Positions 11,072-58,677 of a DNA stretch of 64,000 nucleotides are shown here, piece by piece. The notes below the pieces were generated by a model. It searched no databases. It was given only the letters and a program-made list of their open reading frames with translations, and was not told the origin of the DNA. This DNA comes from Polytrichum commune (lineage: Eukaryota > Streptophyta > Polytrichopsida > Polytrichales > Polytrichaceae). The stretch spans positions 57,407,169-57,471,168 of the forward strand of contig OX485806.1 in NCBI GenBank assembly GCA_950295325.1, given 5' to 3'. Position 1 is the first letter of the stretch. Each line of letters starts with the position of its first letter. A program made the translations under genes and the position numbers.

Positions 11072-11084
11072 GACTAGTGGGTAT

Positions 11085-26480: not shown

Positions 26481-26482
26481 CA

Positions 26483-31643: not shown

Positions 31644-31648
31644 GGAAA

Positions 31649-33989: not shown

Positions 33990-36900
33990 TAGGTTGGAAT
34001 ACTTTGTATGTGTAATGGAGTGGACCCTCTCGGTTCCGAGAGGGTCCTAGTGTAGGACACGATTTTGCACTTGAAGGTTGAAAGCTAGTTTGTGTATATA
34101 GGGTGGAATACTTTGTACTTGGAATGGAGTGGACCCTCTCGGATTTGAGAGGGTCTCAGTTGAGGAATGAAGGAAAAGATTTTGCACGGGGAGGTTGAAA
34201 GCTTATTAGGGTTTAAAGGCGGGAATACTTTGTATGTGGACAGGAGTGGACCCTCTCGGGTGAAAGTTGAAGGCTTGTTGGTGAATATAGCTTGAACTAG
34301 TTGGTATGTGGGCTGCAATGGACCCACTCGGAACCGGGAGGGTCTTAGTCGAGGAATGGATTCTGCATGGGCAAGTTGAAAGCTAGTTAGGGTTTATAGG
34401 TTGGACTAGGGTTTATGTGGACTGGAATGGACCCTCTAGGGTCCAAGAGGGTCTTCCTTGAAGAATGTATGACCAGATTTTGAACATGAGTGTGGAAGGC
34501 TTGTTTGTGAATACAGGTTGGAGTAGTGTGAATATAGGTTGGAGAAGTATGTATGTGACCTGGAATGGACGCTCTCGGAACCGAGAGTGTCTACGTTGAA
34601 GAATGTGTGACCAGATTTTGATCTTGAATGTGGAAGGATTGTTTGGGCATATAGGTTGGACTAGTGGACTGGAATGGAACCGAGAGGGTCTTACATGAGA
34701 AATGTAGGACCAGATTGTGATCATGAATGTGGAAGGCTTGTATGTGAATATGCATAGGGTTTGTTGGTATATAGGTTGGACTAGTATGTATGCGGATTGG
34801 AATGGACGCTCTCGGTTCCGAGAGTGTCTAGGTTGAAGAATGTATGACCAGAATTTGAACATGAATGTGTAAGGCTTGTTTGGGCATATAGATTGGAGTA
34901 GTGTGTATATAGGTTGGACTAGTGGACTGGAATGGACCCTCTCGGAACCGAGAGGGTCAAACATGTGGAATGTAGGACCAAATTTTAATCTTGAATGTTG
35001 AATGTTTGTTTGTGAATATAGGTTGGACATGTTGGTATATAGGTTGGAGTAGTGTGTATGTGGGCTGGACTGGACTGGACTCTCTCGGTTCCGAGAGGGT
35101 CTTAGTGGAGGAGTGTAGGACCAGATTGCAATTTTGAATGTTGAAGGCTTGTTTGTGAATATAGGTTGGAGAAGTGTGTATGTGGACAGGACTGGACCCT
35201 CTCGGTTCCGAGAAGGTATTAGAGGGGGATTGTATCACCAGATTTTAGTCTTGAATGTGTAAGGTTTGTTTGTGAATATAGTTTGGAGTAGTATGAATAT
35301 AGGTTGGACTAGTGGATTGGAATGGAACCTCTCGGAACCGAGAGGGTCTTACATGAGAAATGTGGGACCAGATTGTGATCATGAATGTGGAAGGCTTGTA
35401 TGTGAATATGCATAGGGTTTGTTGGTATATAGGTTGGACTAGTATGTATGTGGACTGGAATGGACCCTCTCGGTTCCGAGAGGGTCTAGGTTGAAGAATG
35501 TGTGACCAGCATTTGAACATGAATGTGTAAGGCTTGTTTGGGCATATAGGTTGGAGTACTATGTATATAGGTTGGACTAGTGGACTGGAATGGACCCTCT
35601 CGGAACCGAGAGGGTCAAACATGTGGAATGTAGGACCAGATTGTAATCTTGAATGTTGAATGTTTGTTTGTGAATATAGGTTGGACATGTTGGTATATAG
35701 GTTGGAGTAGTGTGTATGTGGACTGGACTGGACTCTCTCGGTTCCGAGAGGGTCTAGCTTGAAGAATGTGTGACCATATTTTGATCTTGAATGTGGAAGG
35801 ATTGTTTGGGCATATAGGTTGAAGTAGTGTGTATATAGGTTGGACTAGTGGACTGGAATGGAACCTCTCGGAACCGAGAGGGTACGTCTTACTTGACGAA
35901 TGTTGGACCAGATTTCAATCTTGAATGTGTAAGGCTTGTTTGTAAATATAGGCTGGATTTGTTGGTATATAGGTTGGAGTAGTGTGTATGTGGACTGGAA
36001 TGGACCCTCTCGGTTCCGAGTGGGTCTTAGTGGAGGAGTGTAGGACCAGATTGCAATTTTGAATGTTGAAGGCTTGTTTGTGAATATAGGTTGGAGAAGT
36101 ATGCATGTGGATTGGACTGGACCCTCTCGGTTCCGAGAGGGTCTTAGAGGGGGAATGTATGACCAAATTTTAGTCTTGAATGTGTAAGGCTTGTCTGTGA
36201 CTATGCATAGGGTTTGTTGGTATATAGGTTGGACTAGTATGTATGTAGACTGGAATGGACCCTCTCGGTTCCGAGAGGGTCTAGGTTGAAGAATGTGTAA
36301 GGCTTGTTTGGGCATATAGGTTGGACTAGTATGAATATAGGTAGGACTAGTGGACTGGAATGGATCCTCTCGGAACCGAGAGGGTCTTACATGTGGAATG
36401 TACGACCAGATTTTATTGTTGAATGTTGAAGGCTTGTTTGTGAATATAGGTTGGACATGTTGGTATACAGGTTGGAGTAGTGTGTATGTGGACACAACTG
36501 GACCCTCTCGGTTCCGAGAGGGTCTTAGTGGAGGAGTGTAGGACCAGATTGCAATTTTGAATGATGAAGGCTTGTTTATGAATATAGGGTGGAGAAGTGT
36601 GTATGTGGACTGGACTGGACCCTCTCAGTTCCGAGAGGGTCTTAGAGGGGGAATGTTTGACCTAATTTTAGTCTTGAATGTGTAAGGCTTGTTTGTGAAT
36701 ATAGTTTGGAGTAGTATGAATATAGGTTGGACTGGTGGAGTGGAATGACCCTCTCGGAACCGAGAGGGTCTTACATGACGAATCTTGGACCAGATTTTAA
36801 TGTTGAATGTGTAAGGCTTGTTTGTGAATACAGGCTCGACTTGTTGGTATATAGGTTGGACTAGTATGTATGTGGACTGGAATGGACCCTCTCGTTTCCG

Positions 36901-37650
36901 AGAGGGTCTAGGTTGAAGAATGTGTGACCAGAATTTGAACATGAATGTGTAAGGTTTGTTTGGGCATATAGGTTGGAGTATTATGAATATAGGTAGGACT
37001 AGTGGACTGGAATGGACTTTCTCGGAACCGAGAGGGTCTTACATGTGGAATATAGGACCAGATTTTAATGTTGAATGTTGAAGGCTTGTTTGTGAATATA
37101 GGTTGGACATGTTGGTATATAGGTTGGACTAGTGTGTATGTGGACTGGACTAGACCCTCTCGGTTCCGAGAGGGTCTTAGTGGAGGAGTGTAGGACCAGA
37201 TTGCAATTTTGAATGTGGAAGGCTTGTTTGTGAAAATAGGTTGGAGAATTGTGTATGTGGATTGGACTGGACCCTCTCGGTTCCGAGAGGGTCTTAGAGG
37301 GGGAATGTTGGACCAGATTTTAGTCTTGAATGTGTAACGCTTGTTTGTGAATATAGTTTGGAGTAGTATGAATATCGATTGGACTCTCGGTTCCAAGAGG
37401 GTCTAAGTGGGGGAATATATGACCAGATTTTGAACATGACTGTGGAAGGCTTTAGGGGGCATATAGGTTGAATTGGTGTGTATATAGGTTTGACTCGTGG
37501 ACTGGAATGGACCTCTCGGTTCCGAGGGGGTCGTCATTGAAGAATGTGTGACCAGGTTTTGAACATGAATGTGGAAGGCTTGTTTGTGAACATAGGTTGG
37601 AGTCAGTGGTATATAGGTTGGATTAGAGTGTATGTGGACTGGAGAAATTT
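33990..37650 (+). repeat. Intron 1 palindrome array of element B gene
   Basis: About 25-30 units of 115-150 bp with CCCTCTCGG-TT-CCGAGAGGG or -AA- centres and the spacer TTGAATGTTGAAGGCTTGTT...ATATAGGTTGGA. Long minus-strand 'proteins' rich in Ser, Thr, Pro, Tyr and Gln predicted here are translations of the repeat. Higher-order blocks of several units are themselves duplicated (34,400-35,000 versus 35,250-35,870). Confidence 0.9.
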
Positions 37651-37751
37651 AGATAAATTCAACTAGTGTGAACTCATTGTGTCATGAAATTGTACAGGGA
37701 TCGCAATCCATGGACATCATGCTATCGGAGGAGCCCTCAATGGAGGAACAT

Positions 37752-38441
37752 TGTCGCAACCCTTGCTAGCCCCCCTTGACAATCTTGCCAATTTTCAATT
37801 CTAGCAAAGGTTACAAGCGCTAACCATTTGCATTCCGCCATGCTAATAGTTAGCTCCTCCTACCCCGGACCTTAAAGTTCATAGGAGGGAACCAACCCTC
37901 CTACTTTGCTTTTGGGACTCACCCCTTAATCGGTAACCCATTCCTAGATGTGGACTTCCATCCATGGAAGTCCAATCCCTTGTTGATCATCGTGTTGCCA
38001 GAGCAACACTACAACAACCCGAACCATACTAGACAACTATGGCCTCACATTGGGCCAATCCCATGGAGGCCGTGCCGTTCGGCCTCGGGTGGGTGAGGCC
38101 ACACCACCTCACCCATATAAGCCTCTAGGACTCTACACGGGGCCCCTACCCCACCGTCAACCAACCTCTTGTCTCTCCACCAAAAGTTGGGGCCAAGTAG
38201 ACATTTTCCCTTAGCTGCTGGGCCTAGAAGCCCCAGCAGCTTCAGACCATCATAACTTCCTTGTATGATGTCTGATCATAACAAACGACCCCCCCCCCAT
38301 TGTCATCTACGCTTCACGTACATGCCGATGGACTCCTCACTTGCCCCAATAGGGCAAGTCTTGGGGAAGTTATGCCTGTTTGAACCTTGGCAGTCCCGGG
38401 AATCACTCCCAGGCACTGCTGTACCAGGGCGCTGTCCCGGG
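37752..38441 (-). mobile_element. Solo LTR of gypsy family 2, first part (split by element C)
   Basis: Minus-orientation LTR starting TGTCGCAACCC, preceded by AACAT (37,747-37,751). It stops at GCTGTCCCGGG (38,431-38,441), the target duplication of element C, and resumes at 59,637. Both parts together give about 974 bp, the size of the intact LTRs. Confidence 0.92.
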
Positions 38442-38620
38442 GGGAAAGTTAGTATGCGAGCGGAGAGCGAAGAGCAGAGAGCGAAGAGCGGAGAACTCAA
38501 TTTGAGACATGATATGAGAGAGAAAATGCACCTATAACCGCGGGATTGAGGGAAAATGGAAGAACTATTTTTAGAAAATGTGGAGAGGTATGGACTCTAT
38601 TACCGTGGAAATAAAGTAAC
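38442..38620 (+). repeat. Left terminal inverted repeat of element C
   Basis: GGGAAAGTTAGTATGCGAGC, then repeated GGAGAGCGAAGAGC units, then a diverged box CTATTACCGTGGAAA at about 38,596-38,610. Confidence 0.85.
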
Positions 38621-40071
38621 ATTTCCCTATTCATAAAGTTAATAGAGTTTTGAAACATAGAAATATTAAAATAAAATTCAAAATTAGGGCTTACATCACT
38701 ATGACGTTACAATTATAATTACCGAAATGGTGTGCTATATTACATAATACGGTAAATTAAATAATATTTACTATTTGAACGTGACACGAAGGAGGTTGGC
38801 GAAAACAAATCTCCACATACGGTCCACCCTCTATTACTGTTACACCTATAAGTGTTAACCATTTCCAAATGCTTACTTTATTCTACTCCATACATATTGC
38901 ACACTATAAATGTTAAACCTGTTAATTGTTAACAAAATGGTGTTCACTTCTTTGTGAAGTTGACTCTATAAATGTTAACGACTGAAATACATTCATAAAT
39001 ACATGAGGGTTAACAGTATAAGATTTAGAAAGATCTGTTGTCAAGTATCGGACTTGTTTTTGGAGGGGCCTAGACAGATGATAAATCCCATTCGCAAATG
39101 CCCACAACTGGCACATATTCTCCTACCGACGAGTCTGCAAATAAAACTAAACACCTAGCCTACCCAAAAAAACACAAATACAACCTTATGACCAATAAAC
39201 TGAATTCTAAAAAATTCAAAACAGATATCTAAGTTACCACTTGGATTAGCAAACATTGGCAGTGTACTTTACCATTTATTCAACCCAGCATCTGCCTAAG
39301 ATCGCAAGCAATCATTGAAAAAATGTATGAAAACGATAATAGAAGCCATAACCATTATCATCAAGATTGCCTTCTTCATCTGCATCACTATCACCAAGGA
39401 TAGTAATTACGCCTGGCAGGTTCTCAACCTGTATGCCTTCCTCTACCCCCAAGGCTTCCTCCACAATGACAACATCATCAATGTCTTCCTCCTCCACGTC
39501 ATCAACATCAATGTAGACCATTGTGTAATATAGGTGTGCACCTCATATCATTTTTGATAATTGGAATATTGAAAACCACACCACACTTTATAAATCCAAA
39601 TACCAATCAATCAAACCCAAAATCACTCAACCATGAGGTCGTCACTACTAGATTCCCTACTTCCAAAGATACTACCCTCATGGCCGCCCTCATTTTGTTA
39701 ATTGTTAACAAAATGGTGTTCCCTTCTTTGTAAAGTTGAATCTATAAATGTTAACGACTGAAATACATTCATAATTCACACATGATTTGTAAACTTGATA
39801 TTGAATAAAGTTTTGATTGGGTTTGCAATTTTGTGTATGGTATTCTCTCAGAATTATTCTTCACAATTGCTTATAGTTAAGACATGTTAAGATTTGTATA
39901 TTGCTCAACATTTGAGGGTGAACATTATAGATGGTGATCAAAAATGAAGAATGCAATGCGGGAACAACGAAAAGATGCATTCAATGAGATAATTGGAATA
40001 TTGAAATCCACACCACACTTTATAAATCCATATACCGATAAATCAAACCAACAAATCAATCAAACCCAAAA
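38621..40071. other. Subterminal region of element C with duplicated 3' gene ends
   Basis: AT-rich, no full gene. A block around 39,537-39,785 duplicates the last codons and 3' flank of the gene ending at 40,072: both copies read SIFGSRES on the minus strand before the stop. A second pair of direct repeats (TTGTTAACAAAATGGTGTTC) is at about 38,930 and 39,700. An acidic ORF at 39,521-39,312 (minus) may be another degenerate terminal exon. Confidence 0.5.
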
Positions 40072-40656
40072 TCACTCAACAATGAGGTCGTCAATACTAG
40101 ATTCCCTACTTCCAAAGATACTACCCTCATGGCCGCCCTCATCTGAAGTGGAATCTAAGCTATGGCACTCATTATCCACCTCCGCAGAAAGGTCGAAGAA
40201 GTCTAAGGCACGGGGGTCATAACCCGGAGACGGAGTACTAGCTTCGGTAGGAGAAGGTTGTGCCGCTAGTACCATCGCCATATCATGGGCATAGATAGGC
40301 AATGTGAAACCCATGGTGGGAGTACCCAACACATCCGCACCAACGCCAAGTCTAAAAAAAAACACGAAAATTGTAAGAAAGAGGATGGAAAGTGTAAAAG
40401 CCGAATGGACAAGGAAAATAAGCGAAGAAGGTCATCATATTCACTTACTGCGAGGGCTCTGGCCTCGATCGCTTCAAGGCCGGCTGCCTCTTCTGCGTGC
40501 CTTGTGTAGCCTGCGTGGGAGCAACAACAATGGATGGAGCCTTCACCGCAGGCTGAACACTCTTGAGTGGCTTAAGGACACGGTTGAAGGTGTCCTCGTC
40601 CTCCTCAAGAGCAACGACATGGCGCCCAAGCTGCCTGCATGCATGGATACAAGTCC

Positions 40657-43600
40657 CTGTTGCAGAGTAAGCCACATTTCAGTCAACCCCCTTACTCAGT
40701 TAGCCACAAAATCAACATTTCAGACCTCATTCAAGGCCTAACTAAGGCCACATTTCAGACAGCCCCCTTACTCAGTTAGCCACAAAATCAACACTTTGAG
40801 CCTAATTCAAGACCTAACTAAGCCACATTTAAGTCAGCCCCCTTACTCAGTTACCCACAAAATCAACCCATCAGACCTCATTCAAGGCCTAACTAAGGTT
40901 ACATTTCAGTTTGCCCCCTTACTCAGTTAGCCACAAAATGAACACTTTGAGCCTAATTCAAGACCTAACTAAACCACATTTAAGTCAACCCCCTTACTCA
41001 GTTAGCCACAAAATCAACACTTTGAGCCTCATTAAAGACCTAACTAAGCCACATCAAAGTCAGCCCCTTACACAGATAGCCACAAAATCAACACTGTGAG
41101 CCTAATTGAAGGCCTAACTAAGGCCACATTTTAGTCAGCCCCTAACACAGATAGCCACAAAATCAGCACTGTGAGCCTAATTCAAGAACCAACTAAGGCC
41201 ACATTTCAGTCAGCCCCTTACTCAGTTAGCCACAAAATCAACAATTTGAGCCTCATTAAAGACCTAACTAAGCCACATTCCAGTCGGCCCCTTACTCAGT
41301 TAGCCACAAAATCAACATTTTGAGCCTAATTGAAGGCCTAACTAAGGCCACATTTCAGTCAGCCCCTAACACAGATAGCCACAAAATCAACACTGTGAGC
41401 CTAATTCAAGAACCAACTAAGGCCACATTTCAGTCAGCCCCTTACTAAGTTAGCCACAAAATCAACATTTTGAGCCTCATTAAAGACCTAACTAAGCCAC
41501 ATTCCAGTCAACCCCTTACACAGTTAGCCACACAATCAACATTTTAAGCCTAATTGAAGGCCACATTAAGGCCACATTTCAGTCAATCCACTAGTTCATA
41601 TAGACAAATTTCTAAGTTGTTAGAGGTTCTGAAGTTGGTCTGGGATGCTTTATCGGATCCGACTATGCCCTTTAGGCCTAACTTGAGACCTCACAAACAT
41701 GCACTCCTAAACCATATGGCCAGAAATTAGAATCCCAAAGAACTAACTAAGGCCACATTTCAGTCAGCCCCTTACTCAGTTAGACAAAAAATCAAAACTT
41801 TGAGCCTCATTAAAGACCTAACGAAGGCCACATATCAGTCAACCCACTAGTTCATATAGACAAATTTCTAAGTTGTTAGAGGTTCTGAAGTTGGTCTCGG
41901 ATGCTTTATCGGATCCGACTATGCCCTTTAGGCCTAACCTGAGACCTCAAAAACATGCACTCCTAAACCATATGGCCAGAAATAAGAATCCCTAAGAACT
42001 AACTAAGGCCACATTTCAGTCTGCCCCTTACTCAGTTAGCCAGAAAAACAACACTTTGAGCCTAATTCAAGACCTAACTAAGCCACATTTAAGTCAGCCC
42101 CCTTACTCAGTTAGCCACAAAATCAACACTTTGAGCCTTATTGAAGAGCTAAGTAAGCCATATTTAAGTCAGCATCCTTACTCAGTTAGCCACAAAAACA
42201 ACACTTTGAGCCTAATGGAAGACCTAACTAAGCCACATTTAAGTCAGCCCCCTTACTTAGTTAGCCACAAAATCAACACTTTGAGCCTTATTGAAGAGCT
42301 AAGTAAGCCATATTTAAGTCAGCCCCCTTACTCAGTTAGCCACAAAATCAACATCTCAGACATCATTCAAGAACTAACTAACGCCACATTTCAGTCAACC
42401 CACTAGTTCATATAGCCAAATTTCTAAGTTTTTAGAGGTTCTCAACTTGGACTTGGATGCATTGTCGGATCCGACAATGCCATTTACGCCTAACCTGAGA
42501 CCTCACAAACATGCACCCCTCATGTCGCAACCCTTGCTAGCCCCCCTTGACCATCTTGCCAATTTTCATTTCCTAGCAAAGGTTACGAGCGCTAACCCTT
42601 CGCATACCGCCATGCTAATGGTTAGCTCCTCTCACCCCGGACCTTATAGTTCATAGGAGGGGAACCAACCCTCCTACTTTGCTTTCGGGACTCACCCCTT
42701 CAATCGGTAACCAACCCCGTTAATCGGTAACCAATCCTTAGATGTGGACTTCCATCCATGGAAGTCCAATCTTATGTTGATCATCGCGTTGCCGGAGCAA
42801 CACTACAACAACCCGAACCATACTAGGCAACTATGGCCTCACATTAGGCCAATGCCAATGGAGGCCGTGCCGTTCGGCCTCGGGTGGGTGAGGCCACACC
42901 ACCTCACCCATATAAGCCTCTAGGACTCTACGCGGGGCCCCTACCCCACCGTCAACCAACCTCTTGTCTCTCTACCAAGAGTTGGGGCCAAGTGGACATT
43001 TTCCCTTAGCTGCTAGGCCTAGAAACCCCCCAGCAGCTTCAGACCATCATAACTTCCTTGTATGATGTCTGATCATAACAACCAACCACTCCATCTTCAT
43101 CTACGCTTCACGTAGATGCCGATGGACTCCTCACTTGCCTCATTCAGGCAAGTCTTGAGGAAGTTATGCCTATTTGAACCTTGGCAGTCCCGGGAATCAC
43201 TCCCAGGCACTGCTGTACCAGGGCGCTGTCCCGGGACAGCGCCCCACTCAAATGGCCATAACTCCTAGCTCACACCTCCAATTGAGGTGTTCTTGAGCAT
43301 TCTAGAATCACCATGCCATGAGCAACGCATAGCTCATGGCCTTACCCTCATGCCTCCTAGTCTCCGTGGGTGGGAGGCGTTCCCAACGCCCGGGGCCCTC
43401 ACCCACACTAGGATCACTTGGGCCCTCTCACCAACGGCGCCACAAGTCCCGGGTGTCACTCCGGGGTCCCCCTTGTGCCCATGGTGTTTCGGGCACTCCT
43501 CATGGAGAGGTGCGCGACACCTCAACCATATGGCCAGAAATTTGAATCCCTAAGATCTACCTAATGCCTCATTTCAGACAGCCCCCTTACTCAGTTAGCC

Positions 43601-43789
43601 ACAAAATCAACACTTTGAGCCTCATTAAAGACCTTACTAAGCCACATCAGAGTCAGCCCCTTACTCAGTGAGCCACAAATTGAACATCTCAGACCTCTAA
43701 CATCTAAGGCCAGATTTAAGTCAACCAACTAGTTCATATAGCCAAATTTCTAAGTTTTTAGAGGTTCTCAACTAGGAATTAGGACATAC
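40657..43789. repeat. Repeat-filled intron 7 of element C gene
   Basis: Units of about 75 bp (TTAGCCACAAAATCAACACT, TTTGAGCCTAATTCAAGACC) with interspersed blocks holding the palindrome TTGTCGGATCCGACAA or its relative (near 41,652, 41,911 and 42,470). A solo LTR occupies 42,523-43,519. Small ORFs are artefacts. Confidence 0.87.
42523..43519 (-). mobile_element. Solo LTR of gypsy family 2 inside element C
   Basis: 997 bp, TGTCGC...GCGACA, 5-bp duplication CCTCA (42,518-42,522 and 43,520-43,524). Inserted in intron 7. Confidence 0.93.
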
Positions 43790-45042
43790 CAATGCCCGCA
43801 TTAACGTCCACCACAACCTGTCCAATGTCCGTAGTGGCCATTATCAAGGAGGACATGAAAGCAACATCTTTCTCACGGGGACCACGCCAAGCTTTGGAGC
43901 CGTCCATGAGAGGAGTTGCGGTATAATTCATAATCGCATCATCCATGTCGAGCTCAATGCCAAGAGCCTTGAGCTCATTGGCATCGCGAAGTCGAAATGA
44001 CGAGTGCCGCGGCCGCTTATCAAGGTCGGATCCAATTGTTTTGGTGGCACGAACAAGTAGTACAACCTGGAAGAGGTTGGTGGTCTTGTCCTTATGCTTA
44101 GCTGAAGATAGGCGAAGACGGTTGACTCCCAGCCACTCCTTGAAGATCGTGAACCCAAAAGCAGCAAAGTGGTCTTCAATGCTCTCCCTAAAGTCACCAT
44201 TGTCATCAGGATGAAAGAGGAGGAGAGCTCCATCGTCATGCAGGATCTCATCCGCAAAATCAAAGAGCTCACCTAGAAAATCGCTATCCAATGCATTCCA
44301 CGAAGGTACACTATAGGAAGGATGGGAGACATTAGGTACAGGCAGGTTCTCCGGGATGTCGGCAATGACAAGATCAGCCATGCCCACATCTGACCTCGCA
44401 ACACCTAGAGCTCTCTTGGGATGGGAGGGTGGAAGAGAAAGAATGAAGTTTGAAATCTCATGAAAATGACGACGTTGATGAACAATGGAGGAATTCAACA
44501 TGAATTCTGAAACAACGGGAGGACGCCTAACAGATGAAAGAATGGGCGGAGGAGGCGGCCTGGATAGAGTAGGTAATTCACTTAGAGTTGCAGTGGATGC
44601 AACTGCCGCCTCAGGTGAAGCAGGGGGAGGGGGATCATCCTCCACAGGCTTGAGCTTCCTCGCGCGCTTCTTGAGTGATGACTCGTCTTGAGTCGCACGC
44701 TTCCTCCTCTTGGACTTCTGAGTGTTGGGCTCATCGAGAGTCGCAACAACCTCATCCACCTCCTAAAGCTCACTCTCTAGAAGAACAACCTCATCGCTTT
44801 GAGCAGGAGGCAGGTTCAGCTCTCCACCGGAGAGGCGAATCTTCAACTCCGCCTCCTCATCCGGTTGCCACGTCTTCTTACATTCCAAGTACCAGCAACA
44901 CTCGCGGAGATGCGGGAGGGAAAAGTTGCGTTTTTGAGCCGGGGAAAAAACGAATGTGGGTGAAGAGGAATCTGACCATGCGTCTAGAAATGGAGGGAGC
45001 TTCTTCAAAGCCTTCTTCTTGAAAAGCTCATGCTTGATGTAC
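43790..45042 (-). pseudogene. Methyltransferase main exon, element C
   Basis: About 417 codons. The first ~95 residues (YIKHELFKKKALKKLPPFLD...CCWYLEC) match exon 8 of A. A TAG follows at 44,763-44,765, then a Lys/Arg-rich and Pro/Ala-rich linker, then the catalytic part with ADLVIADIPEN in the place of DPPY, strands ALLLFHPDD and FTIFKEWLGVNRLRL, VVLLVRATK, and the start of motif I. DIPE instead of DPPY/NPPY suggests changed or lost catalysis. Confidence 0.72.
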
Positions 45043-48000
45043 CTTCACAACCAAGGAGTGAGGCCAATCAACAACTTATAAAAGAACTAACGTATCGAAA
45101 GATTAAGTGATTGAGACTTCCTCACACCTCATTCAGACCTCGCAAACTAGGACCTCTAAATGATATGGCCAGAAATTTAAATACTTAGTACTTAAGTAAG
45201 CCACATTTCATTCTGCCCCGTTACTCAGTAAGCCACAAAATCAACAATTTGAGCCTACCTAAAGGCCACATGAAGGCCACATTTCAGTCAACACACTAGC
45301 TAATATAGCCAAATTTCCAAGTTTTTATAGGTTCTGAAGTTGGTCTCGGATGGTTTATCGGATCCGACAATGCCCTGTAGGCCCCCACCCTGAGACCTCA
45401 CAAACATGCACCCCTCAACCATATGGCCAGAAATTTGAATCCCTAAGAACTAACTAATGCCTCATTTCAGTCTGCCCCTTACTCAGTTAGCCACAAAATC
45501 AAAACTTTGAGCCTCATTGAAGACCTAACTAAGGCCACATTTCAGTCAGCCCCTTATTCAGATAGCCACAAAATCAACACTATGAGCCTAATTCAAGAAC
45601 TAACTAAAGCAAGATTACAGTCAACACCTTACTTAGTTAGCCACATAATCAACACTTGGAGCCTAATTGAAGGCCTAACTAAGGCCACATTTCAGACAAC
45701 CCCTAACATAGATAGCCACAAAATCAACATTGTGAGCCTAATTCAAGAACCAACTAAGGCCACATTTCAGTCAACCCACTAGCTAATATAGCCAAATTTC
45801 TAAGTTTCTAAAGGTTCTGAAGTTGGTCTCGGATGCTTTATCGGATCCGACAATGCCCTTTAGGCCTTACCTGAGACCTCACAAACATGCACCCCTCAAC
45901 CATGTGGCCAGAAATTTGAATACTTAGTACCTAACTTAGCCCACATATAAGTCAACTCACTTATGGAGTTAGCCACAAAATGAATTTTTCAGACCTCATT
46001 CAAGGCCACACTAAGCCAACTTTCTAAGTTTTTAGAGGTTCTCAACTTCGTCTTGGATGCTTTGTCGGATCCGACAATGCCCTTTAGGCCTAACCTGAGA
46101 CCTCACAAACATCCACCCCTCAACCATATGGCCAGAAATTTGGATTATAAAGACCTAACTAAGGCCACATTTCAGGGTGCCCCTTACTCAGTTAGCCACA
46201 AAATCAAAACTTTGAGCATCATTAAAGACCTAACCAAGGCCACATCAAAGTCAGCCCCTACCTCAGATAGCCAGAAATCAACACTGTGTGTCGCGCACCT
46301 CTCCATAAGGAGTGCCCGAAACACCATGGGCACAAGGGGGACCCCGGAGTGACACCCGGGACTTGTGGCGCCATTGGTGAGAGGGCCCAAGTGATCCTAG
46401 TGTGGGTGAGGGCCCCGGGCGTTGGGAACGCCTCCCACCCACTGAGACTAGGAAGCATGAGGGTAAGGCCATGAGCTATGCGTAGCTCATAGCGTGGTGA
46501 TTCTAGAATGCTCAAGAACACCTCAATCGGAGGTGTGAGCTAGGAGTTATGGCCATTTGAGTGGGGCGCTGTCCCGGGACAGCGCCCTGGTGCAGCAGTG
46601 CCTGGGAGTGACTCCCGGGACTGCCAAGGTTCAAAGAGGCATAACGTCCTCATAACTTGCCGAAATGGGGCAAGTGAGGAGTCCATCGGCATCTATGTGA
46701 AGCGTGGATGGAGATGGAGGGGTTGGTGGTTAGCATCAGACATCATACAAGGAAGTTATGATGGTCTGAAGTTGCTGGGGGGTTCTAGGCCCAGCAGCTA
46801 AAGGAAAATGTCCACTTGGCCCCAACTCTTGGTAGAGAGACAAGAGGTTGGTTGACGGTGGGGTAGGGGCCCCGCGTGAAGTCCTAGAGGCTTATATGGG
46901 TGAGGTGGTGTGGCCTCACCCACCCGAGGCCGAACGGCAAGGCCTCCATGGGCATTGGCCCATTGTGAGGCCATAGTTGCCTAGTATGCTTCGGGTTGTT
47001 GTAGTGTTGCTCCGGCAACGCGATGATCAACATAGGATTGGACTTCCATGGATGGAAGTCCACATTGGGGAAATGGGTTACCGATTAAGGGGTGAGTCCC
47101 GAAAGCAAAGTAGGAGGGTTGGTTCCCTCCTATGAACTATTGGTCCGGGGTAAGAGGAGCTATCCATTAGCATGGCGGAATGCGAATGGTTAGCGCTCGT
47201 AACCTTTGCTAGAATTGAAAATTGGCAAGATTGTCAAGGGGGGCTAGCAAGGGTTGCGACACTGTGAGCCTAATTCAAGAACTAACTAAGGCCACATTTC
47301 AATCAGCCCTTTACACAGTTAGCCACAAAATCAACAATTTGACTGTTACTGAAGGCCACATTAAGGCCACATTTCAGTCAACCCACTAGTTCATATTGAC
47401 AAATTTCGAAGTTATTAGAGGTTGTGAAGTTGGTCGCGGATGCTTTGTCGGATCCGACAATGCCCTTTAGGCCCAACCTGAGACCTCACAAACATGCACC
47501 CCTCAACAATATGGCCAGAAATTTGGATTCCCAAGAACTAACTACTGCCACATTTCAGGCTGCCCCTTACTCAGTTAGCCACAAAATTAAAACTTTGAGC
47601 CTCATGAAAGACATAACCAAGGTCACATTAAACTCAGTTCCTTACTCAGTTAGCCACAAAATCAATATTTTGAGCCTAATTGAATGCCACATTAAGGCCA
47701 CATTTCAGTCAACCAACTAGTTCATAAAGCCAACTTTCTAAGTTTTTTAGAGGTTCTCAACTTGGTCTTGGATGCATTGTCGGATCCGACAATGCCCTTT
47801 AGGCCTAACCTGAGACCTCACAAACATGCACCCCTCAACCATATGGCCAGAAATTTAAATACTTAGTACATAACTAAGGCCACATTTTAGTTAGCCCCCT
47901 TAATCAGGTAACCACAAAATCAACATTTCAGAACTCATTAATGGCCACACTAAGGCTACATTTAAGTCAACCCACTAATTCATATAAACAAATTTCTAAG

Positions 48001-49293
48001 TTTTTAGAGGTTCTCAACTTTGTCTCTTATGCTTTGTCGGATCCGACAATGCCCTTTAGGCCCAACCTGAGACCTCACAAACATGCACCCCTCAACAATA
48101 TGGCCAGAAATTTGAATCCATAAGATCTAACCAAGGCCACATTAAAGTCAGCCCCTTGCTCAGTTAGCCAAAAATTCAACAATTTCAGACTTCATTAATG
48201 GCCATACTAAAGCTACATTAGAGGTTCTCAACTTGGTCTTAGATGCATTGTCGGATCCGACAATGACCTTTAGGCCTTACCTGAGACCTCACAAACATGC
48301 ACCCCTCAACTATATGGCCAGAAATTTGGATTATAAAGACCACACTAAGGCCACATTAAAGTCAGCCCCCTTCATCAGTTAGCCACAAATTAAACATTTC
48401 AGACCTCATTAATGGCCACACTAAGGCTACATTTAAGTCAACCCCCTAGTTCATATAGCCAAATTTCTAAGTTTTTAGAGGTTCTCAACTTGGTCTTGGA
48501 TGCTTTGTCGGATCCGACAATGCCCTTTAGGCCTTACCTGAGACCTCACAAACATGCACCCCTCAATCATATGGCTAGAAATTTGAATCCCTAAGAACTA
48601 ACTAATGCCTCATTTCAGTCAGCCCCCTTCCTCAGTTAGCCACAAAATCAACACTTTGAGCCTCATTAAAGACCTAACTAAGCCACATCAAAGTCAGCCC
48701 CTTACTCAGTTAGCCACAAAATCAATATTCTGAGACTCATTCAAGACCACATTAAGGCCATAATTAAGTGAACCCACTAGTTCATATAGCCATTTTCTAA
48801 GTTTTTAGAGGTTCTCAACTTTGTCTCTTATGCTTTGTCGGATCCGACAATGCCCTTTAGGCCCAACCTGAGACCTCACAAACATGCACCCCTCAACAAT
48901 ATGGCAAGAATTTTGGATTCCCAAGAACTAACTACTGCCACATTTCAGGCTGCCCCTTACTCAGTTAGCCACAAAATCAATATTGCAGACCTCATTAATG
49001 GCCACACTAAGGCTACATTTAAGTCAACCCACTAATTCATATAGCCAAATTTCCAAGTTTTTATAGGTTCTGAAGTTGGTCTCGGATGGTTTATTGGATC
49101 CGACAATGCCCTTTAGGCCCAACCTGAGACCTCACAAACATGCACCCCTCAACCATATGGACAAAAATTTGTATACTTAGTACCTAAATAAGCTACATCT
49201 TAGTCGCCAACTAGCTCACGACGAGCTCTAAAAGGAATAGATTAAATGGTTTTAAATAAATGAGGAGAACAAATGATGTCTCAACTAACGTAC
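45043..49293. repeat. Repeat-filled intron 6 of element C gene
   Basis: Same repeat family as intron 7. About ten palindromes TTGTCGGATCCGACAA (for example near 45,842, 46,067, 47,448, 47,779, 48,037, 48,250, 48,508 and 48,838), each followed by TGCCCTTTAGGCC and CTGAGACCTCACAAACATGC. A solo LTR is at 46,289-47,261. The position corresponds to intron 6 of element A, also repeat-filled but with a different unit. Confidence 0.87.
46289..47261 (+). mobile_element. Solo LTR of gypsy family 2 inside element C
   Basis: 973 bp, TGTCGC...GCGACA, 5-bp duplication CTGTG (46,284-46,288 and 47,262-47,266). Inserted in intron 6. Confidence 0.93.
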
Positions 49294-50492
49294 CGAAAAA
49301 TTAAGCGCTTGACAATGTTGTCAGAGCCTTTGACATCCTTCCACCACGTCCCCTTTCCGTAGATATCTGAACCTGAAAAGTGACCTATGAACACCTTATC
49401 CCAAAGGTAGATCCACCACTTCTCCAAGTAATATGGCAATGAATCAACTTCGACATCTCCGTCAAGCCCACCCAATGCGTCAAGTATATCAGGTAACTCC
49501 TTGACCACTGCATCCTCAAGCTGTGGATAAATTCAAGGCCAAGATAAGAATCGGCATAGAATGAAGAGTTGATTGGTAAGTAAGGATAAGGAGGATAGAC
49601 GTACCCCTGCCCAGAACGCTGCTTTATTGAGCCAAGGTTTCAAGGTGTCCTCGCTTGCAGGACTTTTGGGGAACCGGATAGCTTCACGATTGAAATTTCC
49701 ACTGTTCCACCACTTTAGCCAACGGACTTTATACTATGGCTCCACAGCAGCTGTGGCAATGAGTTGCAATTTCTCCAATGTCATCTCAATCTTCTTAGAA
49801 TGGTGGCCGCTATAATGCCTAGTAACCTGAAACAAATGTCATCAAAAAAGAAGGCGGAGTAAATTTAATCATGAATTTACGAGAAAGTGCTGAAATGAAT
49901 GCGAGCAATACCGAAGGTATAATTCCGAAGGTTGGTGAGAACCTCTTCCAGGAAGTCTTTTCCAAGGGCCGGGTTTGCGATTGATTGTTGCTTGTTGAAC
50001 TTGTGTCCAAGTTCCTTTGTCGTCTTCTTTATCACAGCGTCCAATACTTCACCCAACCCGTTCCCCGACTGTTCCTCTGGAGGCACTTCCTCCTTGTATA
50101 TTTGGGTAGCCTCATCTACCGCATCGGCTATCTCTTGCTGAACATATATTCTAAATTGTTAGATCACGACTAAAAGTAATGAATGCGAAGTAGAGGGTTG
50201 AGAAATTTGGAGTGACTTACATTGAAAATGAAGGACACCATAAGATCCTGGGTCAGCGGGTACCAAGGGCTCTTGGGGCCTCTGCTCTTGCACGCTTGGA
50301 ATTGCTCCTCGGTCAATAAGGGCTGATAGTAGCTAAGATCATACGAACCGTATTTTTTAATGCGGTGTAGAGTGTGTACGAGGCTAGTTTTAATGTGCGC
50401 GGTTTGGTTAGCCCTGTTGCGGTAGAGACAAATGTCATTAAATGCAAATAAAAAATGAAGGAAACAACGATATGAAAAATTATCATACTTAC

Positions 50493-51229
50493 TTATTGAT
50501 GTCGTGCATTGCGTTAAGGACGTCCCCACGCCCACCCGTTGTGTCCAAGATGACACATTCTGGGCAACCATGCTTCTCGTACGAGAGTGCATCGTCTTTG
50601 TGATCTGTTTCAATACACTCCTTCCAGGCTAACAAGCGATGGTTACCATCATACACAAAGAACATACATCCACTGAGGCTCATCAAGTCTTTATCCTTGC
50701 GCAAAAGAGACTCAAACTTATTATTTTCTGCATTCCATAGGTCTCCCCATTCACGCCTGTCTTTCGCTGAAATGAATCGATTATCTCCGGACTCATTTGT
50801 AGTAGACACATAAAAAGTGGCTGACCCAGCTCGGTATCCAAATTGAAATGCCGACATGAGCTTTGTAATGTTGCTGCGGAAGGTTGGGCGAACCAATGGC
50901 ATGTGAATCAACCTGCACAGGGGGATTCTCATGGAGGACTTTTCCACATGTAGGATTCTCATGCCCTCAACAACTGAAAAGCTATCTTTCTTTAAATTGT
51001 GGCGAATTCGATATTCCATTGCACGAACACCCACATCCGAATCTGCAAGTGAGCCGCAGAGTGGCATCCCGGGTGTCGGCGCCTCGCTACTACCTGGTGT
51101 AAGCCCAGTATTTTGATCACATGACAAGGGAGACCCTTGCTCCCTATGCTCCTCAACACTAAGGGATGACCCAGCGCCAATACGACCCCCAACATCCACA
51201 GACTCACGATCGGCATCCATCTCAACGAT
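50493..51229 (-). CDS. ParB-like domain exon, element C
   Basis: Open 245-codon exon. A variable Ser/Pro/Gly-rich start (MDADRESVDVGG) is followed by MRIPLCRLIHMPLVRP, FQFGYRAG, YVSTTNES, MFFVYDGNHRLLAWKE, CVILDTTG and LNAMHDIN. The DGNHR motif is the clearest sign of the ParB/sulfiredoxin fold. In elements A and B the corresponding region is split into exons 2 and 3, so here an intron was lost or never present. The next exon continues NQTAHIKTSLVHTL, like the helix after the ParB core. Confidence 0.75.
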
Positions 51230-51339
51230 CTGCGGACAACCAATTTATTGAAAGAATGAAGAGCATTCAAATGAACCCAACTTACATTACAATCAACCCC
51301 CCAAAATCCTAAAAAATCAAACCTCATTCATGCCACAGT

Positions 51340-53100
51340 ACTGTCAACCCCCTAGTTCAGATAGCCAGAATTCTACGCTTTTAAGGGTTCTTAAAGCTGT
51401 TTCGGAGGCAATGTCGGATCCGACATAGCCCTTAAAGCCTAACCTAACACCAAACAAATATGGACAACTATACCATATGGCCAGAAATTTGAATAGTTAG
51501 TACCTAACTATGCCCACATTTCAGTCAGCCCACTTATAGAGTTAGCCACGAACTCAACATTTTGAGCCTCACTTAGGACACACTAATGCCTCATCTCAGA
51601 CGCCCCCTAGTTCATATAGCCAAATTTCTAAGTTTTTAGAGGTTCTCAAATTGGTCTTGGATGCTTTGTCGGATCCGACAATACCATTTAGGCCTAAGCT
51701 GAGACTTAACAAACATGCACCCTCAACAGTATGGCCAGAAATTTGAAAACTTAGTACATAACTAAAACCACATTCAAGTCAGCCCCCTTACTCAGTTAGC
51801 CACAAAATCAATATTCTGATCCTTATTCCAGACAACATTCAGGCCACATTTAAGTGAACCCACTAGTTCATTTAGCCATTTTCTAACTTTATAGAGGTTC
51901 TCAACTTGGTCTCTTATGCCTTGTCGGATCCGACAATGCCCATTAGGCGTAACCTGAGACCTCACAAACATGCACCCATCAACTATATGGCCAGAAATTT
52001 GGATTATAAAGACCTAACTAAGGCCACATTAAAGTCAGCCCCCTTACTCAATTAGCCACAAAATCAACATTTCATACCTAAGTAATTGACACACTAAGGC
52101 TACATTTCAGTCAACCCCCTAGTTCATATAGCCAAATTTCCAAGTTTTTAGAGGTTCTCAACTTGGTCTTGGATGCTTTGTCGGATCCGACAATGCCCTA
52201 TAGGCCTTACCTGAGACCTCACAAACATGCACCCCTCAACCATATGGCCAGAAATTTGGATTATAAAGACCTAACTAAGGCCACATTAAAGTCAATTCAC
52301 TTATGGAATTAGCCACAAAATGAATTTTTCAGACCTCATTCAAGGCCACACTAAGCCAACTTTATAAGTTTTTAGAGGTTCTCAACTTGGTCTTGGATGC
52401 TTTGTCGGATCCGACAATGCCCTATAGGCCTTACCTGAGACCTCACAAACATGCACCCCTCAACCATATGGCCAGAAATTTGGATTATAAAGACCTAACT
52501 AAGGCCACATTAAAGTCAATTCACTTATGGAGTTAGCCACAAATTCGACAATTTCAGCCTCATTCAAAACCTAACTAAGGCCACATCAAAGTCAACCCCT
52601 ACTCAGTTACCCACATTCCAAGTATTGTGAGGTTCTCAGGCTGGTCTTGGATGCTTTGTCGGATCCGACAATGCCCTCTAGGCCTAACCTGTGGCCTCCC
52701 AAACATGCACCCCTCAACCACATGGCCAGAAATTTGAATCCCTAAGTACTAACTAAGGCCATTTCAGTCTGCCCCCTTACTCAGTTAGCATGAAAATGAA
52801 CACTTTGAGCCTCATTAAAGACCTAACTAAGCCACATCTAAGTCAGCCCCTTACTCAGTTATCCACAAAATCAACATCTCACACCTCATTCAATAACTAA
52901 CTAAGGCCACATTTAAGTCAACCCACTATTTCATGTAGCCAAATTTCTAAGTATTTAGAGGTTCTCAACTTGGTCTTCGATGCTTTGTCGGATCCGACAA
53001 TGCCCTTTAGGCCTTACCTGAGACCTCACAAACAAGCACCCCTCACTTCATATGATGACTACATAATTCATATAACCACAAAATAAACCTTTTTGACCTC
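51340..53100. repeat. Repeat-filled intron 1 of element C gene
   Basis: Same units as introns 6 and 7, with seven or eight GTCGGATCCGAC palindromes (near 51,416, 51,669, 51,924, 52,180, 52,406, 52,661 and 52,988). Confidence 0.87.
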
Positions 53101-53568
53101 ACCTGAGACCTCTCCACGAGGCGACCACTGCCCTCCCCTCGAATCCCTCCCCCTCTCCAAATTGAGGCTGCAACCTTGAACTCTGTGTTCACTCCTCGTA
53201 TTTGGAGGAATACCCTATTTTTGAGGTTTGTTGTAATGCGGGGAACGATGGTATGTTACTGTTGCGTCAGTCTTGTTCCCTTCCTCTTCCGAGTCATTGT
53301 GACCACCCTTTGCATTGTGAGTGCTTCCACATGCCCACACTTGCTGCCTTGTTTACCTCACGATTACTACCCCTAATTTCTAGTGCATATATATTAACAA
53401 TGTCTAGTGCCAAACTTGCAATGATACGACAAAGCATCGAAAATATCATTACTCGAATGCATAGGATAGTTTCCTCTCATGCCATAATGTTTCCTTTCAA
53501 GCCAACTATACACGGGACTCATAAAATTTAAATAAATTCAAACTAAATGTAATGTAAGCAGAGCATAC

Positions 53569-53847
53569 CTTAATTTCTTCATTGTCCAAGGAGGTGTCTT
53601 CCTCTCCTAATGAGAATAACCTAATGGGAGCAACCTCCGCCTTTTCAAATGACTCAACATTTCGTTTTGAACGACTGTGATTAGCTTTTGTTGAATTATC
53701 CCCTTTTCTTCCCATGGTTGACCTCAATTTGTACAGGGTCACTACCTTATCTATAGTAGCGAACCTCTCCTTTCTCTCAATGCGCCTCTGTTTCTCATTA
53801 GTCTTCCTCTCTTCTCGATCTGCTCTCGCTCTTGACCGAGTGTTCAT
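53569..53847 (-). CDS. Exon 1 of element C gene
   Basis: 93 codons from ATG 53,847 to a GTATGC donor, phase 0. Arg/Lys/Glu-rich start (NTRSRARADREERKTNEKQR) then mixed polar. Little identity with exon 1 of A and B but the same charge pattern, position and phase. Probably a nuclear-localising N-terminus. Confidence 0.6.
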
Positions 53848-54420
53848 CTCTAACCATGCTCAAGCATCTATGCGCCATCATTATGTTCCTATTGTTTTGG
53901 ATTTAGATAATTAACCTGCAGTTTCCTTATTTATTCCTTGGTTTATGCACACTCCATTCAAACACTAAAAAAGGCGCCACTATTGTCTATTCTACCTAAT
54001 CGGTGTCAGCTATATTGTTGTGATTAAGGGATGACTACTATTGTAGTACATCCTATTCATACATGACACTGGTTTTCTAGAATTTACATAAATAACTATT
54101 GATTATTAATTGATCTAGCGGGTTATCATATATTCGGACATTGCAGTCCACCCTAGGTGTATATAATACCCGATTACTTGTACTTGGCTGATATAATTTG
54201 GAGTATCGTGACCTACTTGCCGCTCTCTTTCAGACTCCTTGGTTTAGGGTGTTACACATTTAGAAGTATCATTCATGTTTTCCTTCATAGATCATCCGTC
54301 GTTTGGATCTTGTCCATCATCGTTGTCTTTGGCAATGCATTTCTAATATAAAGGTATCCCACTATGTCGAGAAACCTCTTTCATATTTCCGTCATCGTGC
54401 AAGTCCTCATTCCCCTCATC
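53848..54420. other. Divergent promoter interval of element C
   Basis: About 570 bp between the minus-strand ParB-methyltransferase gene and the plus-strand transposase. AT-rich, no ORF I would support, no palindrome array (unlike element B). Confidence 0.5.
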
Positions 54421-57400
54421 ATGGCTCATGTGCCTGCTAACGGAGAAGTGCCCATGGCAATCCTCTATGCTGATGGACAGAGAGTCCCACTTACCTTTCG
54501 GATGGAGGACAGCGGTCTAGCTTACGTGACGTCCCAGCGTTTGAGTAGTCGGTTCGGTTTCAGAGAGGACACTATTAATGTTGAGGAGGATATATTTTTG
54601 ATGTTCTCACGTCAGAACTTACACACACCCTTGGTCGCATTTCGCATCGAGATGAGAACAATAACATGTTTTGGACTCTTCATCCAGGTAGTTACCGAGT
54701 CTATGGCCTCACTGAATCTCAGATGGCTGCTTCTACTGAGATCCTCACTCCTCGCTCTTCCTCTACCTGCACCATTCAAACTCCTATGCCACGTGATGAG
54801 AAGGTCAAGCTCGAGCCCGGTCTCGAGACGCCTATTGTAGAGAACTCTAGAGTAGAATCTGTAATTACGCTTTCTTCCGATGACGAGGTCAGTCCCACCA
54901 AGCCCCCGCCTCAGGTTATAGTTGGTGGGGACCCTCCTAAAGTATATCCTTTGTCGCAAGATACTGTTAGCATAGTACCATTTCTTAAAAAACTTGCAGG
55001 AATGCCTGGGAGAAAAAACATTCTTAAAAAATTAGACTACTCGGTGATTAGACACGAGAGGGTAGACTACCTTCCTGCTGTGTTTGATGGTGCGGTTATA
55101 TTTGAGTTGCCACCCACTGGTCACACGGCCGCACGGTCACAGGCCAAATCAATGCAGGGAATGGACAAGCGATACGACGGCCATGTATGGACGAAGACCA
55201 TCACCACCAACATCACAAACGAATTTGGTTTGTCCTTCCGTTCTTCCGCATGCGTTGGACACCTGCGTTGCAACAACAAGGAGTGCGAATATTTGATCCG
55301 CCGACCTCGCATTTTCCAAGTCAACGAAACAGAGTTTGAAGGTTGTACCTTCCAAGCCTTTGTAGTGGATCGAGCACCCCCCCTGACTCTACGCTTGTTT
55401 GCAAGGTATGTAAAGAGCCCCCAACATGTATTGCTACATGTGGGGCGAAAATTTATTATGTTGCTGGCAAAAACAATCACACAAGAGCGTGCATCCACAT
55501 TGGAACTCACGATCACCCTGTCAAGGTGGGCGACTACAGAGACACTAAGGCTGAGATCAGTGGCCTAATTGAAGAACAGATCGAGAAGACTCCCCAGGCT
55601 ACCAAGAGTGCAGTGGTGCTGGAGGCTAGCAAAGTTCTAATTGGCAATTATCTTCTTCAACCTGATGATGTGCCACCAAAGAAGCTTAGTCTAGAGGAAC
55701 TTGTTCCTGTACTTGACCGATGCAAGGACATGGCTTCCCCGAACATCCGCAACAAGGTCATGAGTTTCCGTTTCCTCAGAAGGTATGGTGTCATGGACTC
55801 TATCACCAAACTTCGCGGAATCAGTTTATGGGCCATTGTTCAGGAGAACAAATTCCTTGGTCAAGGGGCTGATCTTGATAAGGTTTTTGTCTTCAAGATG
55901 TCGGAAGTTGGGCCTGGTAGTGGGGTAGACTTGGTCAAGCGTATGCAGCCCGACGAAGATCTGGAGAATGCTTGGATGATGTTCGACCATGTGAAACGGG
56001 TTAGACAATGGACCACAATGGCATGCCACGTGTATGACTCCATGTATTGTCGTGTCATGACCATTGCAAGCTGTGACATGCAATCGGAGGACTGTGATGC
56101 CCAGATCGTTTTCTGGAAGAATCTCAATGCTGTGATGGAGAGGAATGGTGTTGTCCATACCAACTTCAAGGGTTTCATGGCCGACAGCGCCCAGGCCAAT
56201 TGGAATGAAGTTCGGGTCATATATGGCAACGGGAAGAAGGAGGACCGCATGGATGACCGGGAGAGAACCTGTCAATTTCACTGGACCCAGTCTATGGTTA
56301 AGTATACCGAGAAGTACATTCCCGAAGAATTCAAGGAGCAGCACAAGAAGATGTGCCACCAGTATAGGACGGCGAGGACCATGGACGAAGCAGAGAGTAT
56401 GTACCACGGGCTACATGCATGGTGGGTATCTGCCGGGGCAGTGACAGAGAAGGCCCTAAACAAACTAGAGCTCTGGCTTGCATTCTGGCACTACCGTTAT
56501 CGCCAATGGGGAGGCTTCATGACCGGGGTATGTTTTCCCAATACATTTCATTTTATTTTCATTCTTTTCAATGTGCTCTTATCTCAAACAACTCTTCTGT
56601 AATCTCTAATTGCTTCCAAAAATTTTATCGCAGAAATTTACAGAAGAAGAACTAGCAGAAATGCCTTCATGTAATCTCGCTGAATCAATACACAACAAGT
56701 GGCTTCAAGCCTCTGGGAACAACGGCGGCGACCTCTACGTTGCTACAGTTGACGACTTCGTTCGAGGCTTCCTACAAGTTGTCAATTACACCAGTTCCTC
56801 AAAGGTGACGTGGGCAAAACATGCCCTACAAAGAAAGAGCTGAAACTAAGGATGGCAGAGCGTAGGGCGAAGCAAACAGGTAATCCTTTAGTGCTTGAAG
56901 ACCCCATGATGGACATGCCTGGAGCAGATGAATTTTGTACCCGTATTCCTGGCATGGCTGGAGAAGAGGTATTCGGGTCCTCGAAGCGGAAGGCATATCT
57001 GCCTCTTGGAGCTGAAGAGGAGTCTCATCGGTCTGACAAGGTTAACTTCTCACATCCAAGAGGTTCAGGACGTGCTGTGAGGGCTCATCCTGTGCAGATG
57101 CCCATCATTCTTCAAGATACTGAAGATGATACGATCGTCCAAGATATTCATCATGAGCCTGAGCCTGAGAACATCCCTGCGTCCTCGCCGAACGAGGGGG
57201 GATCCGTCATGTCAGTGTTGTTGAAGAGACAAAGGTTGACGTCAAGGAGTGGCACATATCAAGACTCCCCAAGACCTCGGCGAAGTGCTGCTGGGCCCAG
57301 AGAGCTGTCACGAAGAAGAAGTGTACTGAGAGAATTGTGAGAGGCGCCAATTTCACCGCCGCGCCTACCTACACCGGAGTTTGGACTAATATACGCAGGA

Positions 57401-58119: not shown

Positions 58120-58229
58120 GAGGCAACCTACAAACATCCTAGATTCTTTTCAATGGACGGTGTCCATTCAAAATTCCCTTGTCATTACATGTACTTAGTC
58201 AGCAAGACAATATTCATAATATATTTTTC

Positions 58230-58235
58230 AATAAA
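58230..58235 (+). terminator. Possible poly(A) signal of transposase C
   Basis: AATAAA 111 bp after the transposase stop. Position is plausible; no experimental support. Confidence 0.35.
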
Positions 58236-58440
58236 AAGTGTTTTGTCATTCATACTATATAGACTATGCACGGCTACCTAAACCCTTACTAGCAGCTTAG
58301 GCAGAAAATATATATTTACAAGATTGCCTAAATTTTCTGGAAATACATTCAAGCATCAACAATTTAAGATACATGACGTTTCTCTTCGGCCTCTAGCGCA
58401 TTCAAGTGACTCTTCATCTGTAGCTCTACTCCGCATAGAA

Positions 58441-58564
58441 TACACAAAATGTAGTGAACTATGAAAGGAATATGGTTGAAAGAGATATGGCCAAATTCGA
58501 GTCATCGAATTTGGACACACCTCTTTCAACCATGTTCCTTTCATAGTTCACTACATTTTGTGTA
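58441..58564. repeat. Long hairpin (foldback) between convergent genes
   Basis: Arms of 44 bp (TACACAAAATGTAGTGAACT... and its complement) with a single mismatch, and an inner 10-bp pair CCAAATTCGA / TCGAATTTGG around GTCA. Sits between the 3' ends of transposase C and ORF2 C. Absent from the short interval in B, so it is either a MITE (ends TACACAAAATG, possible TA duplication) or a later addition. Confidence 0.8.
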
Positions 58565-58677
58565 CTCTTATCTCTTCCGAATCCCTCATTTCCAAGAACC
58601 GTCACCGCCAAAACCAATTGCAATAATTGATTAATATAATAAAGGTATGATTACAATGCTTCCTATGTCTATCAACT

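Follow-up and report, generated by a model that had tools for sequence, protein, structure and literature searches.

A predicted ParB-fold and methyltransferase-fold gene carried by a MULE-type transposon of Polytrichum commune, with palindrome arrays in its introns and flanks

Background

To our knowledge, anti-silencing factors encoded by transposons are known from few systems. The domain that marks VANC-type proteins is DUF1985. In VANDAL21, VANC binds motifs arranged as tandem repeats; these lie upstream of VANA21 and within the introns of two further genes, VANC21 and VANB21 (PMC5735166; papers are cited here from extracts of their text). Here we describe a gene in a 64,000-nucleotide stretch of Polytrichum commune DNA (C4:57407169-57471168, hereafter the window, of an assembly of 407.8 Mb in 64 contigs), which holds many nested transposons. 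A transposon of the Mutator-like element (MULE) type carries this multi-exon accessory gene, whose predicted product has an N-terminus of the ParB/sulfiredoxin fold and a C-terminus of a permuted amino-methyltransferase fold with an altered but conserved motif IV. Both this transposon (element C) and its relatives in the window contain, in their non-coding DNA, palindromes that are arrayed in tandem and have a common core. A sequence-only reading had pointed to the gene; we confirm what it observed in the sequence, and its interpretation as a whole is partly supported.

Results

Copy C of the gene begins with the ATG of exon 1, whose first base is 53847, and its stop codon ends at 40072. It has nine exons on the minus strand and every intron is GT-AG; the spliced frame holds two internal stops, both TAG, whereas the other two frames have 41 and 104.

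53569..53847, minus strand: exon 1, ATG and basic N-terminus
50493..51229, minus strand: exon 2, ParB/sulfiredoxin-fold domain, DGNHR at 50636-50650
50221..50413, minus strand: exon 3
49943..50137, minus strand: exon 4
49605..49826, minus strand: exon 5, in-frame TAG at 49734-49736
49294..49520, minus strand: exon 6
43790..45042, minus strand: exon 7, linker, motif IV-like ADIPENLPVPN at 44331-44363, motif X-like WRGPREK at 43869-43889, start of motif I; TAG at 44763-44765
40449..40656, minus strand: exon 8, remainder of motif I and LGRHVVALEED
40072..40351, minus strand: exon 9 and stop codon

The order of exons and, as derived from exon lengths, the phases of introns 1-6 are identical in copy A, at an identity of ~35% in exon 2; exons 1-7 of A (2531 nt) hold no stop, against 31 and 53 in the other frames. 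The common exon structure of two copies as divergent as A and C is an argument for a single gene with both a ParB and a methyltransferase part, as the sequence-only reading had proposed. In prokaryotic ParB-methylase fusions, too, the ParB part comes first. The sequence-only reading had raised a case against itself, namely intact copies in which each domain has its own gene; none was seen, though no window copy is intact throughout. The database contains relatives of the methyltransferase exon whose reading frame is uninterrupted (e.g. P0121, 431 aa), and the broken state of C is therefore not the rule.

The gene occurs in at least five copies in the window, including a newly found remnant, E. 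Of the copies A-D, all previously placed inside MULEs, only C is proven to be part of a complete element; A adjoins transposase-like sequence at the window edge, and B and D are fragments.

1976..9644, plus strand: copy A, exons 1-7 (1976-2320, 4486-5063, 5141-5336, 5418-5615, 5719-5937, 8559-8800, 8892-9644)
9734..10498, plus strand: copy A, 3' exons with motif X, frameshifted motif I and C-terminus
60104..60678, plus strand: copy B, exon 2 (ParB-like) only, with one frameshift; a long terminal repeat (LTR) fragment follows at 60745
19900..20785, minus strand: copy D, 3' exons of the methyltransferase part only
33552..33881, plus strand: copy E, exon 1 only; open reading frame (ORF) from 33510; divergent from the transposase at 27198-30566 (minus strand)

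The intron at 9645-9733 of A has no counterpart in C; an intron interrupts motif I in C (40657-43789) and D, and in A the motif is uninterrupted (9977-10020). Directly downstream of gene C, at 39556-39774, part of its 3' end occurs a second time.

We found that a profile of the ParB exon matches 436 proteins at E<=1 among 2068 candidates (best 4.4e-97) and a profile of the methyltransferase exon 245 proteins at E<=0.1 among 7020 candidates (best 9.5e-184); given so many matches to both, the gene is not a product of chance. From each set, 120 matches were listed. Among these, entries whose longest contig exceeds 4 kb number 40 for the ParB part and 31 for the methyltransferase part; two sizes, 43,482 and 53,305, coincide exactly in both, and these are the only methyltransferase contigs above 40 kb among the matches listed. 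The two parts are thus probably linked in other genomic places as well. The gene is widespread, and the element around C supports the earlier view of it as MULE-type cargo. With the full-length C product as query, none of the 7997 candidates scored reached E<=0.01, perhaps because the database consists of exon-sized ORFs. Ratios of nonsynonymous to synonymous divergence (dN/dS) are 0.22 and 0.17 for exon 2 of A and B, and 0.26 and 0.29 for A and D, the final value coming from a single frame, as only one of three could be aligned; these values are rough, with dS of 0.54-1.06 over short stretches, and A against C is saturated.

A GxxR-type motif at a strand-helix junction is typical of the ParB/sulfiredoxin superfamily. 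The DGNHR/EGNHR motif reported for the 5' exons is present in exon 2 of C, and among the 120 ParB matches listed we counted EGNHR in 66, DGNHR in 33, another xGNxR in five and none in 16. The predicted model of the ParB part has the fold of this superfamily, so comparison of predicted structures supports the ParB assignment. PF02195 (ParB_N) gave no match at E<=1 in 44 family members, one of which matched PF18064 (CB_ParB_C) at 0.16, nor in the window copies. Within the same genome PF02195 matched at three places, none inside the window; these (L003, L004 and L005, on contigs C12 and C23) lie near contig starts and are possibly bacterial contamination.

Spliced C matches PF01555 with 31.9 bits (gathering score 26.7). 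This match, the permuted motif order IV ... X, I and the Rossmann fold of the predicted models uphold the proposed methyltransferase fold. The motif IV-like stretch does lie ahead of motif I in C, and the latter begins with VVVDVNAGI (43791-43817) and runs over the exon 7/8 splice into LGRHVVALEED (40598-40630); motif I is present in the 3' exons of A, C and D, as reported, the version in A being frameshifted, and the motif IV stretch is missing from the 3' region of A. A relative, P0142, reached 21.8 bits after removal of translated intron, which is below the cut-off, and there was no PF01555 match for uncut P0142 or for the partial sequences P0190, P0207, P0170, P0178 and P0180. The P0142 model has a low mean predicted local distance difference test score (pLDDT 53.9), with core blocks mostly at 60-90. 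A 41-row methyltransferase profile found no PDB match at 0.01, perhaps because most rows lack exon 8 or include translated introns.

Motif X (WRG[AP]REK), motif I (D-x-x-x-G-x-G) and an acidic residue that follows the next strand show wide conservation, which makes a pocket for S-adenosylmethionine (SAM) plausible in this family. Motif IV departs from the classical form. Among the 120 matches listed, 52 have the stretch, and these read D-[ILV]-P-E in 31 cases, D-x-P-D in three, D-x-P-K in five and more divergently in 13, a tally made by hand in which some sequences may be decayed copies; C itself has DIPE. As D[IL]PENLPVPN is conserved over subfamilies with only ~30% identity, a function for the altered motif is favoured.

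Element C is complete and inserted in an LTR copy.

38441..59635: element C, MULE-type, 21,195 bp, with 11-bp direct repeats at its ends
38430..38440, plus strand: left target-site duplication, 11 bp
59636..59646, plus strand: right target-site duplication, 11 bp
38452..38487: left terminal inverted repeat, best-matching stretch (GTATGCGAGCGGAGAG...)
59589..59625: right terminal inverted repeat, best-matching stretch
54585..58119, plus strand: transposase gene, ORF pieces 54585-55568, 55340-56602, 56753-57340 and 57406-58119, SWIM finger in the last
58924..59232, minus strand: third small ORF (gene 3), related to 26456-26980 (plus strand)

The two LTR halves that it separates (37752-38440 and 59636-59935) are contiguous in the copies at 30652-31646, 42523-43520 and 46288-47261. 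The duplication, CGCTGTCCCGG, stands at both ends, and the terminal inverted repeats are identical in 30 of 37 columns (E 2e-5). MULE target duplications range from 8 to 11 bp (PMC6446971), and the duplication and inverted repeats of element C are those of a MULE. The last transposase ORF matches the SWIM finger PF04434 (E 0.0015, 18.5 bits, cut-off 19.6); the core transposase ORFs gave no transposase match against the Pfam profiles. This transposase resembles 27211-30130 in inverse orientation, and the order gene 3, transposase, exon 1 is found again at 26456-33881. We therefore base the MULE label on duplication length, ends, SWIM finger and gene order. Both elements carry gene 3 (MGEERNMFAGLGWEKEIRSLGDPH...) in conserved form at their far end, and a family search with it gave no match of weight.

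Element C entered the LTR close to the midpoint of a perfect palindrome (GGGCGCTGTCCCGGGACAGCGCCC), which may reflect a target preference. An LTR-like repeat family of ~1 kb extends across the window (30652-31646, 42523-43520, 46288-47261 and 25543-26480), including introns 6 and 7 of C. Near 61041 lies TGGTATCAGAGC, which we take to resemble a primer-binding site.

Palindromes form arrays in the introns of C and in the flanks of the other copies.

51230..53568, minus strand: intron 1 of C, tandem array of 7 TCGGNNCCGA palindromes
45043..49293, minus strand: intron 6 of C, tandem array of 9 palindromes; nested LTR at 46288-47261
40657..43789, minus strand: intron 7 of C, tandem array of 3 palindromes; nested LTR at 42523-43520
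33939..37750, plus strand: stretch after exon 1 of E, tandem array of 21 palindromes, mostly GACCCTCTCGGNNCCGAGAGGGTC
32118..33480: array between transposase and exon 1 of E, 6 palindromes
11072..11798, plus strand: array downstream of A, 5 palindromes
18628..19669, minus strand: stretch downstream of D, tandem array of 6 palindromes

The window has 58 TCGGNNCCGA sites, against a mean of 0.51 and a maximum of two in 100 dinucleotide-preserving shuffles, and all of them fall within the introns and flanks listed except one, in intron 5 of A. They form two classes, GACCCTCTCGGNNCCGAGAGGGTC with 39 sites (A, D and E) and GCATTGTCGGATCCGACAATGC with 19 (C), which have the core TCGGNNCCGA in common. 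The outer arms, 4-12 bases long and often but not always self-complementary, differ between the classes. Within units the core is more conserved than its flanks (1.00 vs 0.83-0.88 in C; 0.92 vs 0.56-0.63 in A, D and E), a comparison biased by the choice of sites by their core. Only in E does an array stand upstream of the transposase; in C the space from that gene to exon 1 has none. Words such as GCCTAAT, TTTCAG and GTGGCC occur both in the 64-bp repeat units of A (2784-4030, 6046-8457) and in the 75-bp units of C (40668-42401), and judging by these words the two kinds of array may be distantly related.

Scans for the ParB part among prokaryotes and viruses confirmed none of 48 pattern stretches in genome_contigs and none of 66 in viral_contigs; two phage records matched this part at E 0.5-0.8. 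At E<=0.1, 57 phage records match the methyltransferase part, the best of them at 2e-5, and most are annotated as DNA methyltransferases. Two phage methyltransferases taken as a yardstick, Dori gp42 and ReqiDocB7 gp036, keep DPPF and match PF01555 at 5.1e-45 and 7.2e-27, with no ParB match. As to the earlier proposal of acquisition from a prokaryote or phage, the folds and the ParB-methylase fusions that PMC5512222 describes make a prokaryotic origin plausible, but no close prokaryotic relative was found.

Discussion

Because the anatomy of the locus most resembles that of VANDAL21, as far as the extract of PMC5735166 describes it, we tentatively propose that the predicted protein is a self-targeting anti-silencing or regulatory factor acting via the palindrome arrays, a role which we consider possible rather than probable. 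The ParB-like part, possibly a nucleotide-regulated DNA clamp, would be loaded at or near the arrays in introns and flanks, and the methyltransferase-fold part would bind SAM and DNA and change, read or shield the local methylation state. As a result the element would stay expressed despite host silencing, or its transposition would be timed, and the protein would resemble VANC in function without being its homologue. The sequence-only reading had already drawn the parallel with VANC; the palindrome arrays lend it support, and we still only infer it. A more specific version, in which the transposon has its own parS/ParB-like system whose protein loads at palindromes and spreads, with a novel active site (D-x-P-E-N-L) that writes, reads or blocks a DNA mark against silencing, we consider unlikely.

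Several points weigh against self-targeting. None of the 47 Foldseek matches of the ParB model in the PDB reaches E 0.001, several being of low probability, and no sequence profile recognises this part (Pfam, PHROGs with a best value of 0.29, NCBIfam, PDB profiles). The TCGGNNCCGA motif was picked after the arrays had been seen, and tandem duplication multiplies the counts and makes sites dependent; by our own estimate, a fair chance figure, for two classes with four common inner arm bases, is about 1 in 256. Stretches with the 64-bp arrays of A hold a single palindrome (none in intron 1, one in intron 5). Nearby LTRs carry palindromes too, and the transposase could be what binds them. PP[YFW] occurs at motif IV in 0 of the 52 relatives scored among the matches listed, and the enzyme may be dead.

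The arrays might be transposase binding sites or satellite by-products unrelated to the protein, as the LTR palindromes and the difference between the classes outside the core would allow. Their position in introns and flanks of this very gene and the core common to two otherwise different classes speak against such independence, which we regard as somewhat unlikely. A role as a transposition cofactor of the mudrB or nickase kind, with the ParB-like part nicking or clamping DNA for excision or integration and the methyltransferase fold as a scaffold, would suit a gene divergent from the transposase in C (and, for exon 1, in E) and the nonspecific nicking by a Bacillus cereus ParB-methylase fusion (PMC5512222); it would not by itself explain the intron arrays, and we hold it to be rather improbable.

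The sequence-only reading had suggested that the element is marked by ordinary N6-methyladenine (6mA) or N4-methylcytosine (4mC), and an active amino-methyltransferase steered by the ParB-like part would write such marks on element DNA. The conserved motifs I and X and acidic residue make SAM binding plausible, the predicted fold matches active enzymes, and the D and second P of motif IV are retained in 39 of the 52 scored relatives. In those 39, however, the aromatic residue is replaced by E, D or K and the first P by I, L or V, and in a bdelloid rotifer enzyme the change of SPPY to APPA abolished activity (PMC8885841). As the catalytic motif is missing from all 52, classical catalysis by this family appears doubtful and we think marking by an active enzyme unlikely. 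That the gene is a captured host gene or passive passenger, useless to the element, is very improbable: MULEs tend to pick up host gene fragments (PMC6446971) and the window copies are decaying, but dN/dS is already below 1 between old copies, pointing to purifying selection, the position beside the transposase is identical in C and E, and motif blocks are conserved over divergent subfamilies.

A ParB-methyltransferase gene beside palindrome arrays that are candidate landing sites points to a novel means by which a transposon may influence its own chromatin. Were self-targeting true, a second, unrelated protein would be found with arrays in the introns of an accessory gene, which would suggest that array self-targeting is a general MULE strategy; a ParB-type domain would be at work in a eukaryotic nucleus; and the chemistry of a conserved yet altered methyltransferase active site would call for explanation. 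The palindromes make the self-targeting idea directly testable by binding.

Among the papers that literature searches listed, none deals, judged by title or the start of the abstract, with a MULE carrying a ParB domain or an amino-methyltransferase. Extra ORFs and domains are familiar in MULEs (mudrB, mutB, vanB, vanC; PMD, DUF, SET, FAR1, Ovarian Tumour), and the word methyltransferase occurs 0 times in the extract of that survey (PMC6446971). The bdelloid rotifer enzyme N4CMT (structures 8s9m, 8s9o) has a catalytic SPPY and is not described, in the extract of PMC8885841, as transposon cargo or ParB fusion, the word ParB occurring there 0 times. Transposons that encode DNA methyltransferases are known from dinoflagellates and a charophyte (PMC5890265); these DNMT- or Dam-carrying elements are retrotransposons with cytosine-C5 or Dam-like enzymes, whereas here a DNA transposon carries a permuted amino-methyltransferase fold with ParB. 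Bacterial and phage fusions such as B. cereus Bce_0392 (PMC5512222) likewise join a ParB-fold domain to a DNA methyltransferase; they are prokaryotic, whereas the present gene is spliced, eukaryotic and transposon-borne, with a changed motif IV and a ParB part for which no sequence relationship was found. No Pfam family, the VANC-type domain included, matched at E<=1 when 777 residues of the A product and the middle piece of C were compared; the present protein has ParB and methyltransferase folds, and no relationship of it to VANC was found. The VANC21 motif, YAGTATTAY, has nine bases and one orientation (PMC5735166), whereas long palindromes are found here. Both systems nevertheless consist of a MULE accessory gene with element-specific motifs as tandem repeats in its introns and upstream of the transposase (PMC5735166).

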